From: Spartobacteria bacterium
GTDB lineage: Bacteria; Verrucomicrobiota; Verrucomicrobiia; Chthoniobacterales; UBA10450
Reading direction: 5' to 3'
Length of the DNA: 56,954 nt
Assembly: GCA_003134785.1 (NCBI GenBank)
Contig: PLCN01000005.1
Location: 96,692-153,645, forward strand
The notes under the pieces were generated by a model that was not told the DNA's origin, ran no database searches, and worked only from the letters and a program-made list of their open reading frames with translations. This document shows positions 5,757 to 17,503 of the stretch, in pieces. The stretch's first letter is position 1; each line of letters opens with the position of its first letter. A program made the position numbers and the translations under genes.

Positions 5757-6989
5757 TTACGTTCCCGCAGCCACCCACCGGAGGAAAGGATCGCTCGCGC
5801 GCTTCTTCCCTGCCATCGGCCAAGAAATTTGAAACCAACGCAAACCTTCCTCGAAAGTCTTCGCTTCGAGATAGTGGCGTTTGACCATGCCAACTGAGTT
5901 GCCCATCTCCAAAGCGACTTGCGGAACGTTCTGGGTCAGAGCGGTCCGGTAACTTCCATAAGCATGTCGAAGCGCATTGTGTTTCCAGCGGAAATCGGGA
6001 CGAACAGTTTTCATTTTCGCAAGAATTTGTTCGATCTCACGTTGTGGAACCTTGTCTTCGCATACCGGCCCGCGAGCTTCGCGCCATGGGGCCAGTTTCT
6101 GAATCAACGCATCGCATATCGGAATAATTCGCCGCTCGTTCACCTTCGTGACCTCGGGCGGCAGATCGATCAGTTTCTGCTCCCACCGAACGCTGGCCCA
6201 ATCCATACGCAAAACTTCGAAGGTCCGAACGCCGGCGAACGCGCTGATGAGAACCCAGGGGAGCCAAACCCTGCGTGTGCTCTCGATGATCAACTGCAGT
6301 TCATCGGGAGTGAACATCGCGACTGTTTTTCGCGCTACTTTCAGCTTCGTCACATCTTCTGCTTCAGTCGTGCGGTCCTTCGGAAGATAACGCTCCGAGC
6401 GCGCGAAACGGAAAAGCGTGACGACCTGGTCCCGCAGATTGTTCCAGCGGCGCGGGCCGACTTCGCACCCGTTTAGGAATTCTTTGATGTGCGGCGCATG
6501 AACTTTCTCGATCTCGTCCGGAACTGTCGCAGCAAACGACTTCAAATCGTCCTCCAGACGGTTGACGTAGGGAACCGAGAGTTGCTCACGGCGCTTGGCC
6601 GCGATCAACTCGGCAATCACGTCGGCAGTTCTCTTCCCCTTGTACGGCGCCTTTGTCCGCTCCCACTCTCGTACGGCCTTGAGCACGGTGTAACCGAGCG
6701 GCTCCACGAGTTCGCGAGCGAGGTTGTACGCTTGGCGATCGTCGAGTGTCATCGCGCCGTTCACCTTCTCTTTGAGCGCCTCAGAGACATCCCGAGTCAG
6801 CTGGTCAGCCTCCTTCAAAGTCGCGCGAGACCGTCGTTGACGTGTGCCGTCGGAGTCATACCAAACCGTCATGTATCTGCCCGAAGAAAGTCGGTACGTG
6901 GAAATCTCATGTCCCTTAACCGCGGTGACGCGAAGAGGCTCCTTCATAGAGTCCACTTTGTCACAAACTGTCACAAAGGCGCAAGACAA
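5757..6989 (-). CDS. int: Tyrosine recombinase/integrase of the tmRNA-integrated element
   Basis: This is a 410-residue tyrosine-family site-specific recombinase. An N-terminal arm-binding-like domain (SGRYMTVWYDSDGTRQRRSR) is followed by a core-binding SAM-like domain (about 120-210) and the catalytic domain. Catalytic features are Arg255 in FAGVRTFEV, the HNALRHAYGSYR box (R341, H342), a probable beta-hairpin lysine in KVNERRIIP, and the nucleophile Tyr373 in VKRHYLEAK. ATG at 6989 is used; an internal ATG at 6947 (MKEPLRV) is an alternative. The gene lies 22 nt from the 3' end of the tmRNA gene and is transcribed away from it, the standard arrangement for an island integrated in ssrA. It converges with the excisionase-like gene. 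Confidence 0.93.
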   Translation of the reverse strand: MSCAFVTVCDKVDSMKEPLRVTAVKGHEISTYRLSSGRYMTVWYDSDGTRQRRSRATLKEADQLTRDVSEALKEKVNGAMTLDDRQAYNLARELVEPLGYTVLKAVREWERTKAPYKGKRTADVIAELIAAKRREQLSVPYVNRLEDDLKSFAATVPDEIEKVHAPHIKEFLNGCEVGPRRWNNLRDQVVTLFRFARSERYLPKDRTTEAEDVTKLKVARKTVAMFTPDELQLIIESTRRVWLPWVLISAFAGVRTFEVLRMDWASVRWEQKLIDLPPEVTKVNERRIIPICDALIQKLAPWREARGPVCEDKVPQREIEQILAKMKTVRPDFRWKHNALRHAYGSYRTALTQNVPQVALEMGNSVGMVKRHYLEAKTFEEGLRWFQISWPMAGKKRASDPFLRWVAAGT

Positions 6990-7011
6990 TTCGATTTACT
7001 ATCGTAAAATA

Positions 7012-7040
7012 GGTGGAGGCGAGGGGAGTTGAACCCCTGT
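7012..7040. other. Probable attachment-site core at the tmRNA 3' end
   Basis: The last about 29 nt of the tmRNA gene (T-arm and acceptor 3' strand) directly abut the integrase gene region. Integrases of this family commonly target the 3' end of tRNA or tmRNA genes and duplicate that end at the far junction of the island. The reciprocal att copy was not found within 1-7011, so the far end must lie left of this window. Confidence 0.55.
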
Positions 7041-7369
7041 CCTCGAAGCTGTCTACGCAAGCTTCTACATGTGTATCCGGTGGTAAGTTTTAAGGGGCCG
7101 AACGTTGCACCGGCACACTGCCGGCCCCCGAGCGTCCACGAAATTCCTTCACCGCCCGGCGCGGTCACTCCGCCGGACGATTAGCCTGCTGTCCATGTTT
7201 CCGGCCGTAGCAGGCGTCCAACCGGAAACATCGCGGTCAATTAAGCCGCGAGAGCGAGATCTTGGTGATCTGCGTTTATTTTTTTTGGTCCGGATTTTAA
7301 CGAGGCCAACGAACCATCCTCGACATGCCGCCTGCGCTTCAAACTACGAGTCGAAGCCAGTACGCCCCC
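7012..7369 (-). ncRNA. ssrA: Transfer-messenger RNA (tmRNA)
   Basis: On the minus strand the RNA begins GGGGGCGUACUGGCUUCGAC and ends with the T-arm GGGGUUCAACUCCCC followed by CGCCUCC-ACC. The seven acceptor-stem positions pair (GGGGGCG with CGCCUCC, one G-U). Length is about 358 nt, normal for bacterial tmRNA. A tag reading frame ending GCU CUC GCG GCU UAA would encode ALAA-type residues. Reading from a GCA resume codon gives ADHQDLALAA, and the stop is followed by pseudoknot-like GC-rich stems. The A-rich stretch upstream of the tag is typical. The genome carries CCT after the discriminator A, so the terminal A of CCA would be added enzymatically. tmRNA rescues stalled ribosomes with SmpB. 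Confidence 0.95.
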
Positions 7370-7386
7370 ATTTTTTGGAGAACAAA

Positions 7387-7415
7387 ACTATAACGTCGCG
7401 CGGGCAGCTATGCAA
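7387..7415 (-). promoter_or_regulatory. Sigma-70-type promoter of the tmRNA gene
   Basis: On the minus strand, TTGCAT (7415-7410) and TATAGT (7392-7387) are separated by exactly 17 nt. The -10 box lies 17 nt before the mature tmRNA 5' end. That leaves a short 5' leader for RNase P to remove, as expected for tmRNA. Confidence 0.7.
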
Positions 7416-7492
7416 CCTCGCGGAACCGCCTCCACTCGGCCCGCCCAAAAAATCGCTTGCGGAGAGCAATCGCCTGCCGCACGACTTCCTCC

Positions 7493-8299
7493 ATGCCGGA
7501 GCTGAAAGATTTCGCCAGCTCCGTCGCCGTCATCGTCTCGAGCTGCGACGCGTTTTTCGATGCGTGGCGGCCGTTCTTTTTTTTCTTCCGCAAACACTGG
7601 AGCGATTGCCCTTTCCCGACATTTCTCATCGTCAATCGTCTGCGCGTCCGTTCGAACTTCATCCGGCCGATCAAGGTTGGGCCGGACCTCGACTGGGCCG
7701 CCAACATGCAGGTCGCGCTCAACCAGATCGCGCAGCCTTATGTTCTCTACCTGCAGGAAGATTATTTCTTGAACGGCCCCGTGAACCGCGAGCAGTTGGC
7801 CGCCGATTTCGCCTACGCCTTCGAGCGCGACGCGGCCTCCTTCTGCTTCTACGGCCGGTCGCAGTTGGAACCCGATTTCGTGCCGCTCAACGATCGGTTC
7901 GGCATTGTGCCCAGGGAATCCGATGGCCGGACTCGCCTCCAGGCGACCTTGTGGAAAAAAAGCGTGCTCCAATCCGCGTTGCGACCCGGTGAATCCGCCT
8001 GGAACATGGAAGCGCGCGCGAGCGAACGGACTCGCGACCTTCTCGCGCTCTCTTATTCGCGGCGCGATAGCGTTCCGATCTCCTACTTGATGTCGGCGAT
8101 TTCCCGCCGGCTCTGGACGCCGGAAGCGATTTCGCTTTGCGAGAAAGAGGGCGTTCGCATCCGCCCGCGTTTCAGGCTGGAACATAGTGAAGTCGCCTGG
8201 CGCCGCCGCTTCAAACGCGGTCTCGGGCGCGTTCGTCTGGCTATGGCGTTGGCCCGCCAAGGTGACCGCGAGATTAATCTCGATGGTCCGTATGACTGA
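7493..8299 (+). CDS. Glycosyltransferase-like protein (GT-A-type fold likely)
   Basis: This is a 268-residue protein. The N-terminal strand SVAVIVSSCDAFFDAW followed by FPTFLIVNRLRV resembles the nucleotide-sugar-binding start of GT-A transferases. A YVLYLQEDYFLNGPV segment resembles the acidic motif region (here QED), and RLQATLWKKSVLQSALRPGESAWNMEARASERT resembles the acceptor-side region of family proteins that modify surface glycans. No signal peptide or membrane segment is visible. The frame is open 12 codons further upstream, but that part overlaps the tmRNA promoter region, so the ATG at 7493 was chosen. It stands alone, between the tmRNA promoter and a convergent gene. The exact family and sugar are unknown. 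Confidence 0.65.
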   Translation: MPELKDFASSVAVIVSSCDAFFDAWRPFFFFFRKHWSDCPFPTFLIVNRLRVRSNFIRPIKVGPDLDWAANMQVALNQIAQPYVLYLQEDYFLNGPVNREQLAADFAYAFERDAASFCFYGRSQLEPDFVPLNDRFGIVPRESDGRTRLQATLWKKSVLQSALRPGESAWNMEARASERTRDLLALSYSRRDSVPISYLMSAISRRLWTPEAISLCEKEGVRIRPRFRLEHSEVAWRRRFKRGLGRVRLAMALARQGDREINLDGPYD

Positions 8300-10691: not shown

Positions 10692-10895
10692 ATGAGTCTG
10701 GCCGAGATTGAAAAGGCGGTGAAAAATCTAACCCCCGCAGAACTGACCAAACTCGCTGGTTACATCGCGCGTCAGGATAAGCTCGCCTGGGATAAGCAGC
10801 TCGAAGAGGATTTTTCTCCGGACGGGAAACACGCCGAGGCGCTGCGAAAAATCGATGCCGAGATTGACGCCGGGAAGTTCACGCCGATGCCGTGA
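10692..10895 (+). CDS. Antitoxin component of a RelE/ParE-type toxin-antitoxin pair
   Basis: This is a 67-residue acidic protein. The first half (SLAEIEKAVKNLTPAELTKL) is helical and resembles short addiction-module antitoxins. The second half is a charged, probably disordered toxin-wrapping segment (LEEDFSPDGKHAEALRKIDAEIDAGKF). Its stop overlaps the GTG start of the toxin-like gene by 4 nt (GTGA), the usual antitoxin-first coupled arrangement. It would neutralise the downstream RNase-like toxin and probably autoregulate the operon, though no DNA-binding motif is obvious. The family is not named with certainty. Confidence 0.75.
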   Translation: MSLAEIEKAVKNLTPAELTKLAGYIARQDKLAWDKQLEEDFSPDGKHAEALRKIDAEIDAGKFTPMP

Positions 10896-11146
10896 GGTCC
10901 CACGCCCTCGCTTCCTTTTGGAAGTGTTATGAAGAGTTGCCCCGGCACATCCAAAAACTTGCCGACAAGAATTTCACCCTCTTCAAAGCCAACCCGCGAC
11001 ATCCATCGTTGGGGTTCAAGAAAAAAGGCGTGGTCCACACCGTCGAGATCGGTCGCAGCTACCGCGCCCTCGCCCGAGAGCGCGGCGGCGAACTCTACTG
11101 GTTCTGGATCGGCACGCACGAGACGTACAACAACTTCCGATTTTAG
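10892..11146 (+). CDS. RelE/ParE-superfamily toxin
   Basis: This is an 84-residue basic protein. The fold-typical order is visible: two N-terminal helices (SFWKCYEELPRHIQKLADKN), FTLFKANPRHPSLGFKK, then beta strands with HTVEIGRSYRALARER and LYWFWIGTHETYNNF. The PRHPSLGFK...VEIGRSYRAL pattern is typical of RelE/HigB-like mRNA-interferase toxins, whose Arg residues contact mRNA on the ribosome. GTG start, coupled to the antitoxin stop. It is immediately followed by a DUF2442 gene, so the module could have two potential antitoxins. Confidence 0.8.
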   Translation: MRSHALASFWKCYEELPRHIQKLADKNFTLFKANPRHPSLGFKKKGVVHTVEIGRSYRALARERGGELYWFWIGTHETYNNFRF

Positions 11147-13154: not shown

Positions 13155-13988
13155 TTAGATCGGCGTGGGCACAACTTTGACGCCGGAGAAACGCTGATTC
13201 GCCTCTAATATTGTTCGAACAATTACTCCTCGAAGTGAAGCAAGACGTGCTGCGGGCGGTTCGCGCTGGTCCGCCCCGGAATGTCCATGTAACGCGCCGG
13301 GAATCGCCGCTAGCTCCATCGAAACAAAGTCTTCGATTTGGTGCGATACCTCTTTCAAAGTATCAAACTCGTGACTGACCCAACAGAGTGGGTCTACAAC
13401 ACGTCGCTTAAACCGGTAGTAGTCGGTTTTGAATTCGCGAACAGCCCGCTTCGCCTCAGCAATTAATTCGTCCGCGGGAGCTGACGCGGTGGCTGACGTG
13501 CTTTCAGAAACGCGCCGCAATTCGCCTTCGTACTTATCGAAGAAATCCTCGATGAGTTGTCGATTGGGCTCAAGAATAAGTCTCTGTATCCAAAAATTGC
13601 CGACATCGATTCGGAACTGCTCCAAACGTTCGGTTTTTGTTTCTGCTCTTTCTTCTTTTCGGTATTGCCGGTCTTCGTTCCGCTCGAATAGCTGCTGGTT
13701 GCGCGTTCGCGTAAAGATCAACCAAACGAGTAGCAGATTTACGATGGTTAGACCGTTGCGAGTCCATTCCCATACCGGCGAGGATGCCACTGAGGTCATC
13801 TCACGATTGCTAACCGCATCATTCGGCGAAAACGTTGGAGAAGGTGAGGATGTGCCTGATACCAACACAGGCGACGAGATAGGTGTCGACGGCGCTATTT
13901 GCTGGGCCGCGGCTAAGTTAACCAAACAGACCTGTCCGACGCCTACCGCCGCCAGGCAGAACAATGCAGGAAGGATCGACGTGCGCAC
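13155..13988 (-). CDS. Exported or membrane-anchored coiled-coil protein, third gene of the STAS-GHKL operon
   Basis: This is a 277-residue protein of unknown function starting with GTG at 13988. It has a hydrophobic signal-like N-terminus (LPALFCLAAVGVGQVCLVNLAAA), a Ser/Thr/Pro linker (about 30-70), and a transmembrane segment (about 78-94, GLTIVNLLLVWLIFT). A long charged helix follows (NQQLFERNEDRQYRKEERAE), then a mostly helical cytoplasmic part with FRIDVGNFWIQRLILEPNRQ. Topology suggests a small periplasmic loop with cytoplasmic helices. It lies 11 nt after the STAS-like gene and so belongs to the same operon. It may anchor or sense for the ATPase pair. No homologous family is recognised. 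Confidence 0.75.
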   Translation of the reverse strand: MRTSILPALFCLAAVGVGQVCLVNLAAAQQIAPSTPISSPVLVSGTSSPSPTFSPNDAVSNREMTSVASSPVWEWTRNGLTIVNLLLVWLIFTRTRNQQLFERNEDRQYRKEERAETKTERLEQFRIDVGNFWIQRLILEPNRQLIEDFFDKYEGELRRVSESTSATASAPADELIAEAKRAVREFKTDYYRFKRRVVDPLCWVSHEFDTLKEVSHQIEDFVSMELAAIPGALHGHSGADQREPPAARLASLRGVIVRTILEANQRFSGVKVVPTPI

Positions 13989-13999
13989 AAGCGTCGTCG

Positions 14000-14341
14000 T
14001 TAGCCTCGGGCAGCAGGGAGGGGATTGGATTCTTCAAGTGCCTCCCGCTTGCCTTCCTCAATATCTTCCCAGATTTCTGGAATCGCCCGAAACACGTACT
14101 TTTCGTCGAAGCCTTCTGGCCCGAGGCTTTGCACGCTTTGCGCGAACAAGCCTAGAAAGAAAGAACTGTTCAACGAGATAATGTGAGTAGGCACAATAAT
14201 TTCGACCTGACCAGGTCGCTTATCTTCGGAATCCAAATCGAGTTTACTGCGAAGTTCCTCGCCTTTGGGGCGACCGGAAATAACCAAGGATCCCGTATCG
14301 CAGTATGCGGATAGGTCGACTATTCGTGGCTGATTATTCAT
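14000..14341 (-). CDS. STAS-like DUF4325 protein
   Basis: This is a 113-residue protein. The core KLDLDSEDKRPGQVEIIVPT then HIISLNSSFFLGLFAQSVQSLGPEGF fits the STAS-like DUF4325 domain. It shows a strand, a Ser-containing turn (SLNSSF) where anti-anti-sigma factors carry the phosphorylatable Ser, and the following amphipathic helix. Such proteins are usually encoded beside GHKL ATPases and are presumed to be phosphorylated or bound by them. The ATG overlaps the stop of the upstream ATPase gene by 4 nt (ATGA), strongly implying a functional pair. The C-terminal 30 residues are acidic (IPEIWEDIEEGKREALEE). Confidence 0.75.
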   Translation of the reverse strand: MNNQPRIVDLSAYCDTGSLVISGRPKGEELRSKLDLDSEDKRPGQVEIIVPTHIISLNSSFFLGLFAQSVQSLGPEGFDEKYVFRAIPEIWEDIEEGKREALEESNPLPAARG

Positions 14342-15711
14342 AAAACGACATTTGCGGGCTCCGTGCTGAGTTTTTCGAGAAAACCTTTATCGACAAAAAA
14401 CTTGAAGCTCAAGAGGGTGCCCGGAAATGTACCGCTGACGGTGTGAACATTCGCCGAATCAGGCTTGTCTTCAAGGTCGTTGTTTTCGTTGAACGCTATC
14501 ACACTACGGGTTCCACCGGGAACCGCGACCGGGACGAGGGAGTATTTCGAATTGAAGAGGATTCGCGTCCTCCCAGACAACAATGTCATATTTGGCTCTG
14601 GCTCGGCCGCGCTGCTGCCGAGTTTCTGGAAAGCCTGGATCATTTGGACCGTCCCCTTGCCCCGGCTAATTGCACCCGGCCGCTGGCTGAATCGGCTCAC
14701 CCCATCCTGAAGTGCATACAAAGTGCAGAGGTCCGCTTGTGTGAAATTCTCTGCGAAAAAGAATTTCTTCCTCGAATGCGTTGCGGCCAGTCGTGATATT
14801 TCGTCGCGGGTTCCAGCCGGCGTATTGGGATCGATAATTGATTGAAAGATGCTTTTTCCGAAATTGAAAATCACTAGCTGGCACTCTCCGACCAGATTGC
14901 TTGGCGCGACGTTCTTGGGGTCTGGTGGTACCATGTATCCGATCGCGAACCACTCATTCTGCCCGGAGTGCTCCTCGGCATTGGTAATGACCTCGCCCGC
15001 CCACTTCACGACATGACGCTGCCCCTTTATTCCCAGTCGGAAGCCTGCTTTCTCGAAACACAGATTTAAATAGCGCACGAGCTTTGATGCGGCGAGCTCT
15101 TGGTGCGATCCACCGCGAAGATGACTTCCAGATGTGCGCTTTCCAGCAAAGAGTTCGAACGGCACAACGTTTTGCTCGAATTCGACAGGAGCTTCAGCCC
15201 CTTTCACTTTCAGATGCTTGGTCATCCCCATGCACTGGAACAAGTTCTTAACCCGCTCGTTCTCTGGAAATACTCCGCCTAGGCCAAATGGGCCTCCGCG
15301 CGCTCGCCACTCACGCAGAAGTCGGAGAACTACAACATCGAGAACGGTGCTCGCGCCGAGATCCATCCGTGTGCATTTGCTGTGATCGAATCGCAGACTC
15401 CTCGCATCCCGCCGCCTGCAAATCTCGATCACCGAGCGGATCACGTTGAAAGTTGGACCAGGGTTGTAGGTAAAGGAAAAAACCTCAGGGATTTTGACGA
15501 CGTATGCGTGATCGGCGCCGTCCCGCTCGCCCTTATACTCGCCCTTGAAGTGTTCACGAAGAAACGTCACTAGCAAATCTAGCTGGCCTCGCCCCAAGGC
15601 TCTCGGCGAAGCTGTATAACGCCGTGAGCGCTGTTTACGCCGCAGCCGCTTTTTGTACTTTTCAAAGCGCTTCTTCCGGAGCGTCTCGAGATATATGTTG
15701 TCGCGTTTCAC
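14338..15711 (-). CDS. STAS-like/GHKL ATPase fusion protein
   Basis: This is a 457-residue protein with a very basic N-terminus (RKKRFEKYKKRLRRKQRSRR), suggesting nucleic-acid or membrane-surface contact. A STAS-like segment at about 85-170 (ARSLRFDHSKCTRMDLGAST and LDVVVLRLLREW) precedes a GHKL (histidine-kinase/HSP90/RsbW-type) ATPase at about 205-440. The N box is WAGEVITNAEEH (E240, N244), a G1-like turn is LVIFNFGKSIF, with Asn where Asp is usual, and the G2 box is SRGKGTVQMI. There is no His dimerisation domain, so an anti-sigma-like kinase or a conformational ATPase is more likely than a sensor kinase. It starts with GTG at 15711, heads the operon and is coupled to the DUF4325 gene. 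Confidence 0.75.
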   Translation of the reverse strand: MKRDNIYLETLRKKRFEKYKKRLRRKQRSRRYTASPRALGRGQLDLLVTFLREHFKGEYKGERDGADHAYVVKIPEVFSFTYNPGPTFNVIRSVIEICRRRDARSLRFDHSKCTRMDLGASTVLDVVVLRLLREWRARGGPFGLGGVFPENERVKNLFQCMGMTKHLKVKGAEAPVEFEQNVVPFELFAGKRTSGSHLRGGSHQELAASKLVRYLNLCFEKAGFRLGIKGQRHVVKWAGEVITNAEEHSGQNEWFAIGYMVPPDPKNVAPSNLVGECQLVIFNFGKSIFQSIIDPNTPAGTRDEISRLAATHSRKKFFFAENFTQADLCTLYALQDGVSRFSQRPGAISRGKGTVQMIQAFQKLGSSAAEPEPNMTLLSGRTRILFNSKYSLVPVAVPGGTRSVIAFNENNDLEDKPDSANVHTVSGTFPGTLLSFKFFVDKGFLEKLSTEPANVVL

Positions 15712-16515: not shown

Positions 16516-16716
16516 ATGAAAGCTGCGACCGCCGCCGTTGATTATGTGGTGAAGAATGGAAAGCGCACCGCCGTGATTTTGCCGATCGACGAGTATGAGG
16601 AACTTTTGCAGGACTTGGACGATCTCGCGGTCATTGCGCGCCGGAAAAATGAGCCGACGATCCCCCTGGCGGAAGTGAAGCGCCGCTTGAAGAAGAATGG
16701 CGCGCTACGCCGTTGA
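16516..16716 (+). CDS. Phd/YefM-family antitoxin, apparently orphaned
   Basis: This is a 66-residue protein beginning MKAATAAVDYVVKNGKRTAV then ILPIDEYEELLQDLDDLAVI, the standard Phd/YefM DNA-binding fold start. A charged C-terminal toxin-binding tail follows (KNEPTIPLAEVKRRLKKNG). In intact pairs a RelE toxin follows with overlap. Here an overlapping ATG at 16697 does start MARYAVEF, like RelE toxins, but the frame then degenerates into repeat sequence. The antitoxin may still bind its promoter or serve as an anti-addiction gene. Confidence 0.8.
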   Translation: MKAATAAVDYVVKNGKRTAVILPIDEYEELLQDLDDLAVIARRKNEPTIPLAEVKRRLKKNGALRR

Positions 16717-16784: not shown

Positions 16785-16887
16785 ATGATTGCAGGCGACG
16801 GACGCGGCGTTGGGGTCGACCGAATCGCAGGCGGGGTCTGGGAATCACGTAGAACTTAGCGGCTCCTCTCACCGCGAGATTTTGGAA

Positions 16888-17181
16888 CGCCTCAAGCGCG
16901 GGTTGGGATCATTCCGGCACGCGCTGGGTTGCTGCCAACGCGCGAGTGAAATGGTTCCAGCGCGCGTTGGAAGGCTTCGAACGCGGGGTCGGAATGTTTC
17001 CAGCGTGCGTTGGGACGCTTCCACCGCACGGTGGAAAGAGAACGTTCCGAATTTTGGAGCGCCGCAGCGTGCGCTGGGAGGAGTCCTCCGCGTGCTGGAA
17101 GCAATGCAACGCGTGTTGCAAGAGACCCGGCACGTGCTGGAGGGAGTGCAAAACGCGCAGAAGGGATCCCAATTTCTGCAA
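16888..17181. repeat. Degenerate 21-bp minisatellite, 14 units
   Basis: Phasing at 21 nt from 16888 gives 14 consecutive units sharing a core like TTCCAGCGCGCGTTGG, for example ATGGTTCCAGCGCGCGTTGG (16951), AATGTTTCCAGCGTGCGTTG (16993) and GAAGCAATGCAACGCGTGTT (17098). The unit is a multiple of 3 and has few stop triplets, so all six frames are open across most of the array. Any of them would encode heptads such as LRVLEAMQRVLQETRHVLEG. No start signal or conserved domain supports a real gene, so I annotate it as a repeat. Confidence 0.8.
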
Positions 17182-17223
17182 AGCGGCGGCGTCCATTCGG
17201 CCAAGGCCAGAGATGCGCTGGAA

Positions 17224-17257
17224 GGACGGGCGCTGTCCCGTCCCAAATTTCTTGGGA
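17224..17257. repeat. Two adjacent short palindromes
   Basis: GGACGGG-CGCTGT-CCCGTCC (17224-17243) overlaps TCCCAA-ATTTC-TTGGGA (17241-17257). They lie just beyond the minisatellite, with a CTACAG end of the TGTAG family at about 17323-17328. Mobile-repeat debris or a weak terminator is likely. Confidence 0.45.
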
Positions 17258-17503
17258 CGACACGGCGGTCATCCCTCCATGAAGAGGCGTTCCCCGGAGA
17301 CACGGCGACGCAGCGCCGTGGCTACAGTTCGTGAGGCACGGAGTTCACTGACCGCAAGAATTGCTATTGACGGGTCAGCGCCCGTTTCTTAAACCCGGGG
17401 CGAAGTCGATAACCCCTCCACAGCCACGCCGCCCCTTTCAATCTCCAGGAAATAGCAACGTTATGGCCGTTTAAACACAACGTCCCCAGCCTCCCGAAAT
17501 ATC

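Follow-up and report, generated by a model that had tools for sequence, protein, structure and literature searches.

A mobile, defence-type partner-switch module of a STAS-GHKL kinase-like protein, a small STAS-like protein and a membrane protein, with an inferred function

A three-gene operon encoding a STAS-GHKL kinase-like protein (K), a small STAS-like protein (S) and a membrane protein (M) was analysed in a 56,954-nucleotide stretch of contig PLCN01000005.1 from a Spartobacteria bacterium (referred to as the window), together with its relatives on plasmids, viral-collection contigs and genome contigs. The K-S-M trio is a real and mobile partner-switch module of the defence type, the function of which we infer. 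On balance, we regard it as a mobile switch of the abortive-infection or toxin-antitoxin type, in which M would act as the membrane effector.

Gene order, spread and genomic contexts of the trio

The three genes are located on the minus strand of the window:

14338 to 15711, minus strand: K, STAS-GHKL kinase-like protein of 457 amino acids with a GTG start (open reading frame, ORF; fold; hhalign similarity to CapK-like proteins; 24 of 24 loci)
14000 to 14341, minus strand: S, small STAS-like protein of 113 amino acids with an ATG start (ORF; structural model; hhalign similarity to CapS-like proteins; weak structural match to STAS)
13155 to 13988, minus strand: M, membrane protein of 277 amino acids with a GTG start, presumed effector (ORF; hydrophobic segments; third gene in 24 of 24 loci)

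The ORFs of K and S overlap by 4 nucleotides and a gap of 11 nucleotides separates S from M, exactly as stated for positions 13155-15711 in an original prediction that had been made from the sequence of the window alone. The genes K, S and M were found in the same order in all 24 distinct loci (labelled L with a number), and this conservation rules out chance ORFs as an explanation. The pairwise distances of the three proteins are correlated across the 24 loci (rho 0.63 for K-S, 0.59 for K-M and 0.42 for S-M, with 0 of 2000 permutations as high in each case), and the trio has therefore largely travelled together.

The set of loci consists of the window, one metagenome-assembled genome (MAG), five plasmids and 17 contigs of a viral collection. 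A tblastn search with K yielded seven plasmid records (Spirosoma, three from Pantoea, Providencia, Vibrio and Salinivibrio), two further Pantoea records with the same match being counted once as L004, and a scan of genome contigs with K detected one Lachnospiraceae MAG (L002). Profile scans of IMG/VR provided 7, 6 and 13 loci, 17 of them distinct; a scan of the viral collection with a single K protein returned no relative, nor did a blastn search of E. coli genomes with the Pantoea cassette. Locus L071, whose K, S and M are identical to those of L070, was left uncounted, as were L056-L060, L062, L066 and L072, which represent the same contigs as L008-L014; the S gene of L061 was read from the translation. 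The trio is accordingly carried by plasmids, by contigs of the viral collection and by genome contigs from several phyla, and its distribution among genomes is very patchy. The genome of the window contains a single copy of K, and K was detected in one of eight genomes of the genus, one of 83 of the family and one of 30 of the more complete genomes of the family. Two draws from the phylum gave 1/276 and 1/288, the only match in either draw being the genome of the window itself, and the phylum to which the MAG belongs likewise yielded the MAG alone (1/348). The original prediction had called for a gene-neighbourhood analysis, with scattered genes or housekeeping contexts as observations that would speak against it; the outcome favours the prediction, as the analysis revealed an intact trio in every locus, a single carrier among the genomes of the family and sites that resemble defence hotspots.

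With respect to base composition, the cassette has a G+C content of 0.528, compared with 0.582 for the whole window and 0.608 for the neighbouring peptidase gene, which suggests a foreign origin but is no proof by itself. The window was compared with L051, a relative from the same genus carrying the orthologous M28 peptidase gene (84% nucleotide identity), and with four other relatives. Matches were obtained at the peptidase only, too little to define a clean empty site or the limits of the insertion.

The gene neighbourhoods of the trio include sites at which phages are known to carry defence genes. In L070, located on a P2-like contig, the trio has a portal protein gene (phrog_68) on one side and a gpA-type nickase gene (phrog_91) on the other. 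According to PMC9122126, a hotspot of P2 near cos holds old, tin and many anti-phage systems, and the position of the trio in L070 would, by gene order, be the place of this hotspot. In L012 and L069 the neighbours of the trio are a phage repressor gene (phrog_4) and an integrase gene (phrog_1), and a repressor-integrase interval is the kind of site named for a hotspot of Vibrionaceae in that paper; the two sites resemble this hotspot in gene order. As far as the described hotspots go, three copies of the trio thus sit at places like known prophage defence sites, and the original suggestion of a mobile or island context is supported.

Additionally, integrases assigned by PHROG were found at most 2 kb from the trio in seven loci (L008, L011, L012, L013, L069, L073 and L074), lysis genes adjoin it in L010, L011 and L014 (judged by eye, the endolysin of L014 by PHROG), and an amidase gene does so in L064. 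On the Spirosoma plasmid L003 the Zorya genes ZorE, ZorB and ZorA follow about 2.1 kb downstream; a type IIG restriction enzyme is encoded 1.2 kb upstream of the trio in L009, with one gene in between, and an ORF 1.9 kb downstream in L008 matches the candidate families PDC-M41B and PDC-M30B. When 20 neighbours picked by eye were examined with PADLOC, seven matched at E <=0.001 (two of them weakly, in L006 and L067) and 13 did not, numbers that imply no rate. The ParA/ParB genes adjoin the trio in L006 and lie 2.3 kb away in L004. The mobilizable plasmid L005, only 6.8 kb in size, contains besides the trio replication, mobilization and DNA-binding genes and one small gene annotated as tRNA modification GTPase. 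In L002 (positions 5791-7951) the trio was located by eye between a sugar aminotransferase-like and a sugar transferase-like gene of an exopolysaccharide cluster, all on one strand.

Folds and conserved residues of K, S and M

Scans of the K, S and M proteins of the window with Pfam, NCBIfam and PADLOC gave no significant match (best E 0.15). The domain structure of K was deduced from an AlphaFold2 model built on nine sequences, with a predicted local distance difference test (pLDDT) score of 74, and comprises the following features:

15577 to 15711, minus strand: basic N-terminus of K, covering residues 1-45 (18 K/R versus 4 D/E; helix 3-34 in the model)
15196 to 15534, minus strand: STAS domain of K, residues 60-172 (VIA-align Z 9.2 to the anti-sigma-factor antagonists 4qtp and 1vc1)
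14383 to 15171, minus strand: GHKL domain of K, residues 181-443 (VIA-align Z 11.5, root mean square deviation 2.6, 137/141 residues to SpoIIAB 1l0o_A)
14968 to 14997, minus strand: N-box GEVITNAEEH of K with E240, N244 and H248 (all three residues in 24/24 loci)
14848 to 14865, minus strand: altered G1 box NFGKSI of K, residues 283-288, in which Asn replaces the Asp of GHKL proteins (N 21, S 2, T 1, D 0; n=24)
14650 to 14664, minus strand: G2 box RGKGT of K, residues 350-354 (G351 and G353 in 24/24, R350 and T354 each in 20/24)

These data bear out the proposed fusion of a STAS-like segment with a GHKL ATPase behind a very basic N-terminus. In the VIA-align comparison the match of the GHKL domain to SpoIIAB is followed by the next other GHKL protein at Z 8.0. 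Foldseek alone gave nothing for K at E <=0.001 (STAS proteins headed its list and a SpoIIAB chain came eleventh), and a sequence search of solved structures with K returned nothing. Residues 3-34 form one helix, partly at low pLDDT, and no helix-turn-helix (HTH) domain was matched in K by the Pfam scan. In 21 of 24 loci the N-terminal 45 residues include at least 11 K/R; the exceptions are L007, with its annotated start, L074, in which the 5' end of the gene coincides with the edge of the contig, and L067. In L067 (5590-6100) the 5' end of the K gene is apparently out of frame, which may reflect a broken copy or a sequencing error.

The K family resembles a set of seven CapK-like STAS-GHKL proteins (hhalign 96.9%, E 1.6e-10, 271 columns), the set being defined by architecture and a phrog_3364 match rather than by a published CapK sequence, whereas only 1.8% was obtained with five SpoIIAB-type proteins taken from operons that resemble spoIIA by eye; the E-values refer to single pairs. 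Both sets were recruited as matches of phrog_3364, a profile that also matches the K of the window (8.3e-8). In a FastTree phylogeny of 40 proteins (288 of 693 columns) the 24 K proteins were split from 16 outgroup proteins with a support of 0.999. The residues E240, N244 and H248, the G1 glycine and the glycines G351 and G353 are invariant in the 24 loci, and K thus keeps the Glu and Asn of the N-box (E240 and N244) and the G2 glycines of the GHKL superfamily.

The S protein was modelled with a pLDDT of 86, and one of its residues stands out:

14162 to 14164, minus strand: codon of Ser60 of S, predicted phospho-acceptor (Ser in 24/24; aligned with the Ser of CapS-like proteins; near the start of helix 59-81)

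All 24 loci share Ser60 and also Gly27, and Ser60 aligns with the serine of the YSFADEL motif in the CapS-like protein of L023. An hhalign comparison of S with four CapS-like proteins (three with a putative winged HTH (wHTH) domain, one without) gave 65.6% and E 5.8e-5, compared with 0.3% for SpoIIAA-type proteins. The length of S varies from 103 to 147 amino acids and the protein ends after the STAS part: the S of the window contains no match to an HTH or wHTH domain, and in the alignment the S proteins of the other loci end likewise. Two CapS-like proteins were scanned with Pfam; L023 matched DUF4325 above the cut-off (E 5.6e-6) and L028 did not, and the HTH matches of both were below the cut-off. 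Foldseek alone was uninformative for S, with no match at E <=0.001 and mixed folds as best hits (RsbS at rank 17), and the sequence search of solved structures gave chance-level matches only for both S and M. The structures of CapS and VapSC were not among the matches listed, which says nothing about membership. The S of the window is also matched by phrog_37359 (2.9e-7). Both families, phrog_3364 for K and phrog_37359 for S, lack an assigned function and may deserve renaming.

The third protein is less conserved, and two of its features can be placed in the window:

13710 to 13754, minus strand: second hydrophobic segment of M, at residues 79-93, with a charged region behind it (found with a hydropathy window of 15 residues; under the threshold set for 19 residues)
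13590 to 13592, minus strand: codon of W133 of M, part of a loosely defined W-x-R/K/Q motif that follows the membrane segment (pattern search)

The M of the window has hydrophobic segments at residues 9-23 and 79-93, the second followed by a charged region, in agreement with the predicted membrane protein with a charged stretch. In many loci M contains two such segments with an intervening stretch of varying length. The alignment of M is poor, with an identity of 0.09-0.18 to the window protein. A [W/M]-x-[R/K/Q] motif was detected in the first 14 M proteins (14/14), 14-40 residues past a membrane-proximal hydrophobic segment and with W replaced by M in L009; a differently written pattern is missing in four of 24 and lies elsewhere in some, and no single motif is common to all. 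Weak PHROG matches to families without a function were obtained for two other M proteins (E 0.021 and 0.092), and no PIN domain was matched by Pfam in the three M proteins scanned (window, L014 and L009).

Further features were observed around the module in the window. A small two-gene pair at 10692-11146, the second protein of which matches ParE_like (E 4e-8), is a possible toxin-antitoxin pair. On the other side of the module, positions 16516-16716 encode a Phd/YefM-like antitoxin below the curated cut-off, and overlapping ORFs on both strands at 16789-17392 with repeated-looking peptides rich in R, H and A suggest a DNA repeat array.

Proposed switch and alternative explanations

Since the trio has the same layout as the VapKSC system compared below, with M replacing the toxin VapC, we propose that S guards M, that K would phosphorylate Ser60 of S and that M would act on the membrane. 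At rest, S would bind M and keep it inactive. By analogy with CapK, the signal may be single-stranded DNA (ssDNA) from damage or phage replication, which would be bound between the STAS and GHKL domains of K and perhaps also by the basic N-terminal helix. Upon this signal K would modify Ser60 by means of its SpoIIAB-like GHKL domain, phosphorylated S would release M, and free M would damage or depolarise the inner membrane and stop the infected cell. An anti-phage activity is suggested by the genomic contexts and by the relationship to VapKSC.

Several observations weigh against this proposal. The main ground for caution, and the most unusual feature of the module, is the G1 box of K. The Asp of this box recognises adenine in GHKL proteins. 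It is absent from K in 24/24 loci and present in 16/16 outgroup STAS-GHKL proteins, a count that covers the outgroup of the tree and not every fetched locus (L080 was read by eye); therefore, the use of ATP by K is uncertain. The STAS fold of S was matched weakly: RsbV (Z 4.8) and RsbS (Z 4.6) ranked highest, yet with scores within the noise. DUF4325 (PF14213), the family to which S had originally been assigned, neither matches S nor anything else in the genome at E 0.001; what stands of that assignment is the STAS-like character and a probable remote homology to DUF4325 by way of the CapS-like L023. No relative of M with a known function was found in Pfam, NCBIfam, PADLOC, PHROG or the sequence search of solved structures, and the effector role of M therefore rests on analogy; at least one hydrophobic segment is present in 24/24 M proteins by a 15-residue window, in a scan made without a control set. 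Finally, K was the entry point to every locus and the viral collection, which selects for prophages, supplied 17 of the 24, so that the counts carry no information on an enrichment in prophages, and a tblastn search of the INPHARED phages with two K proteins gave no match.

The altered G1 box bears directly on two other explanations. K might not phosphorylate S with ATP at all, being a pseudokinase or using another nucleotide and switching S by binding alone. The replacement of the Asp in K alone and of the next glycine (S/T in 23/24, P in one) speaks for this explanation, whereas the invariant residues of K (E240, N244, H248, G351 and G353) and of S (Ser60) point to a retained phosphotransfer, and we consider it unlikely. 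It is also unlikely that the trio forms a separate class of phage-defence switches, in which a GHKL kinase lacking the adenine-recognising Asp would read a changed ligand, such as another nucleotide or the depletion of nucleotides in infection, and would free a membrane-breaking effector through a STAS guard. With respect to M, the two hydrophobic segments found in many loci, with a variable stretch between them that presumably faces the periplasm, and the high variability that is expected of a sensor as well as of an arms-race protein, would also fit a sensor or membrane anchor that detects membrane stress or the entry of a phage and relays the signal to S and K, the output lying elsewhere. 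This role appears improbable to us: the cassette looks self-contained, the short gene list of the 6.8-kb plasmid being an example, and the third gene specifies the toxin in the closest system, VapKSC (PMC13373217).

Copies on plasmids and prophage-like contigs, with ParA/ParB genes nearby in two loci, would be in accordance with an addiction module of the toxin-antitoxin type that maintains mobile elements and for which phage defence is not the selected role. This explanation is distinctly doubtful, as the trio is also carried by genome contigs in which no element is evident (window and L002) and is found at hotspot-like sites of anti-phage cargo; addiction and defence are not exclusive roles. 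The resemblance noted originally, to an anti-sigma/anti-anti-sigma partner switch that lacks a sigma factor, agrees with the folds of K and with the neighbourhood, since no sigma factor was found among nine Pfam-scanned neighbours in the window, the other loci having received no systematic scan. Control of a sigma factor by an ordinary switch of the RsbW/RsbV or SpoIIAB/SpoIIAA type would involve the same folds, but the missing sigma neighbour, the low profile scores against SpoIIAB-type and SpoIIAA-type proteins and the single carrier among 83 family genomes have already largely refuted it. A housekeeping sigma switch was rejected on these grounds and is extremely improbable.

Comparison with known kinase-STAS systems

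In the open-access literature, preprints, subscription journals and supplementary tables being outside the scope, no paper on a kinase-STAS-membrane trio was found and only PMC13373217 comes close; the supplementary tables of PMC9122126 may list such genes unnamed. Within the literature covered, the kinase-STAS-membrane version is undescribed, as the original prediction had supposed, although kinase-STAS switches themselves are known. If the proposed switch with M as effector is true, the kinase-STAS pair would be a general control unit with varied outputs, namely a transcription factor (CapKS), an RNase-type toxin (VapKSC) or a membrane protein. Moreover, the module of the window had gone unrecognised by the common profile collections, the 24 loci offer clear residues for mutation, and the puzzling active site of K turns the choice of the nucleotide into a directly testable question.

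Related proteins show further arrangements. The CapK-like profile matched nine of 276 genomes of the window's phylum at E 1e-8, and phrog_3364 matched 17 of 249 genomes of the phylum of L002 at 1e-10; no obvious PIN-type third gene was seen beside these matches when the translations, in most cases with some 1.5 kb of flank to either side, were read by eye. In L024, L027, L028 and L029 the translations revealed, by eye, a CapK-like STAS-GHKL gene directly beside a gene that we take to be cinA-like, and in L028 and L029 a CapS-like STAS-wHTH gene lies on its other side, a possible chromosomal CapKS pair outside islands. Single-chain STAS-GHKL-STAS proteins in L021, L026, L077 and L081 (C-terminal DUF4325 by Pfam in the first two, by eye in the others) combine the kinase and a possible substrate in one protein. 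In L078, L079 and L083 an HTH-STAS-GHKL-like protein, split over two ORFs in L083, is followed by a 92-amino-acid STAS-like protein that has a GSSF motif but lacks a wHTH, all judged by eye.

In K, the GHKL and STAS domains have folds that are shared with SpoIIAB/SpoIIAA and RsbW/RsbV; in contrast to these switches, STAS and GHKL are fused in one chain, no sigma factor was seen and the profile similarity is weak. CapK/CapS is described in PMC13373217 as an ssDNA-activated kinase with a STAS-wHTH repressor, both encoded upstream of immune operons such as CBASS and Bub, the phospho-Ser of CapS lying on the second STAS helix at a position equivalent to that of SpoIIAA. The trio resembles CapKS in its pair of STAS-GHKL and STAS proteins, K and more weakly S being similar in profile to the CapK-like and CapS-like proteins found here; it differs in that S lacks the C-terminal wHTH and that the next gene encodes M in 24/24 loci rather than an immune operon.

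The closest system is VapKSC (Chambers et al., EMBO J 2026, PMC13373217), which consists of the STAS-GHKL kinase VapK, the STAS antitoxin VapS and the PIN nuclease VapC. As in CapKS, the kinase targets a conserved Ser of its STAS partner, and in VapKSC this frees the toxin. VapS inhibits VapC, the phosphomimic VapS S48E no longer restrains the toxin, and the operon confers about 2-log protection against one phage, Bas42; activation by ssDNA is reported for CapK and only predicted for VapK, the aromatic residue in contact with ssDNA being F54 in VapK and W68 in CapK. F78 of K, a Phe in 22/24 loci, is a candidate equivalent of these two residues. The likeness to VapK and VapS was judged from the description of that system and from the CapK-like and CapS-like proteins found here. 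On this basis the trio shares with VapKSC the kinase-STAS-effector layout and the proximity of some copies to other defence genes, a K protein that is a STAS-GHKL kinase-like protein without an N-terminal HTH, and a small STAS-like S protein with an invariant Ser60, a short C-terminal region and a weakly matched STAS fold (Z 4.8). It differs in that the third gene encodes the membrane protein M and no VapC-like PIN nuclease, and in three features of the K family, namely a clade of its own with respect to the outgroup of the tree, the missing Asp of the G1 box and a basic N-terminal helix. Because a VapC-like third protein was looked for and not found, with a hydrophobic segment in 24/24 M proteins and no PIN match in the three scanned, the trio is not a member of VapKSC, yet by analogy it would work like that system, with a membrane protein in the place of the nuclease.

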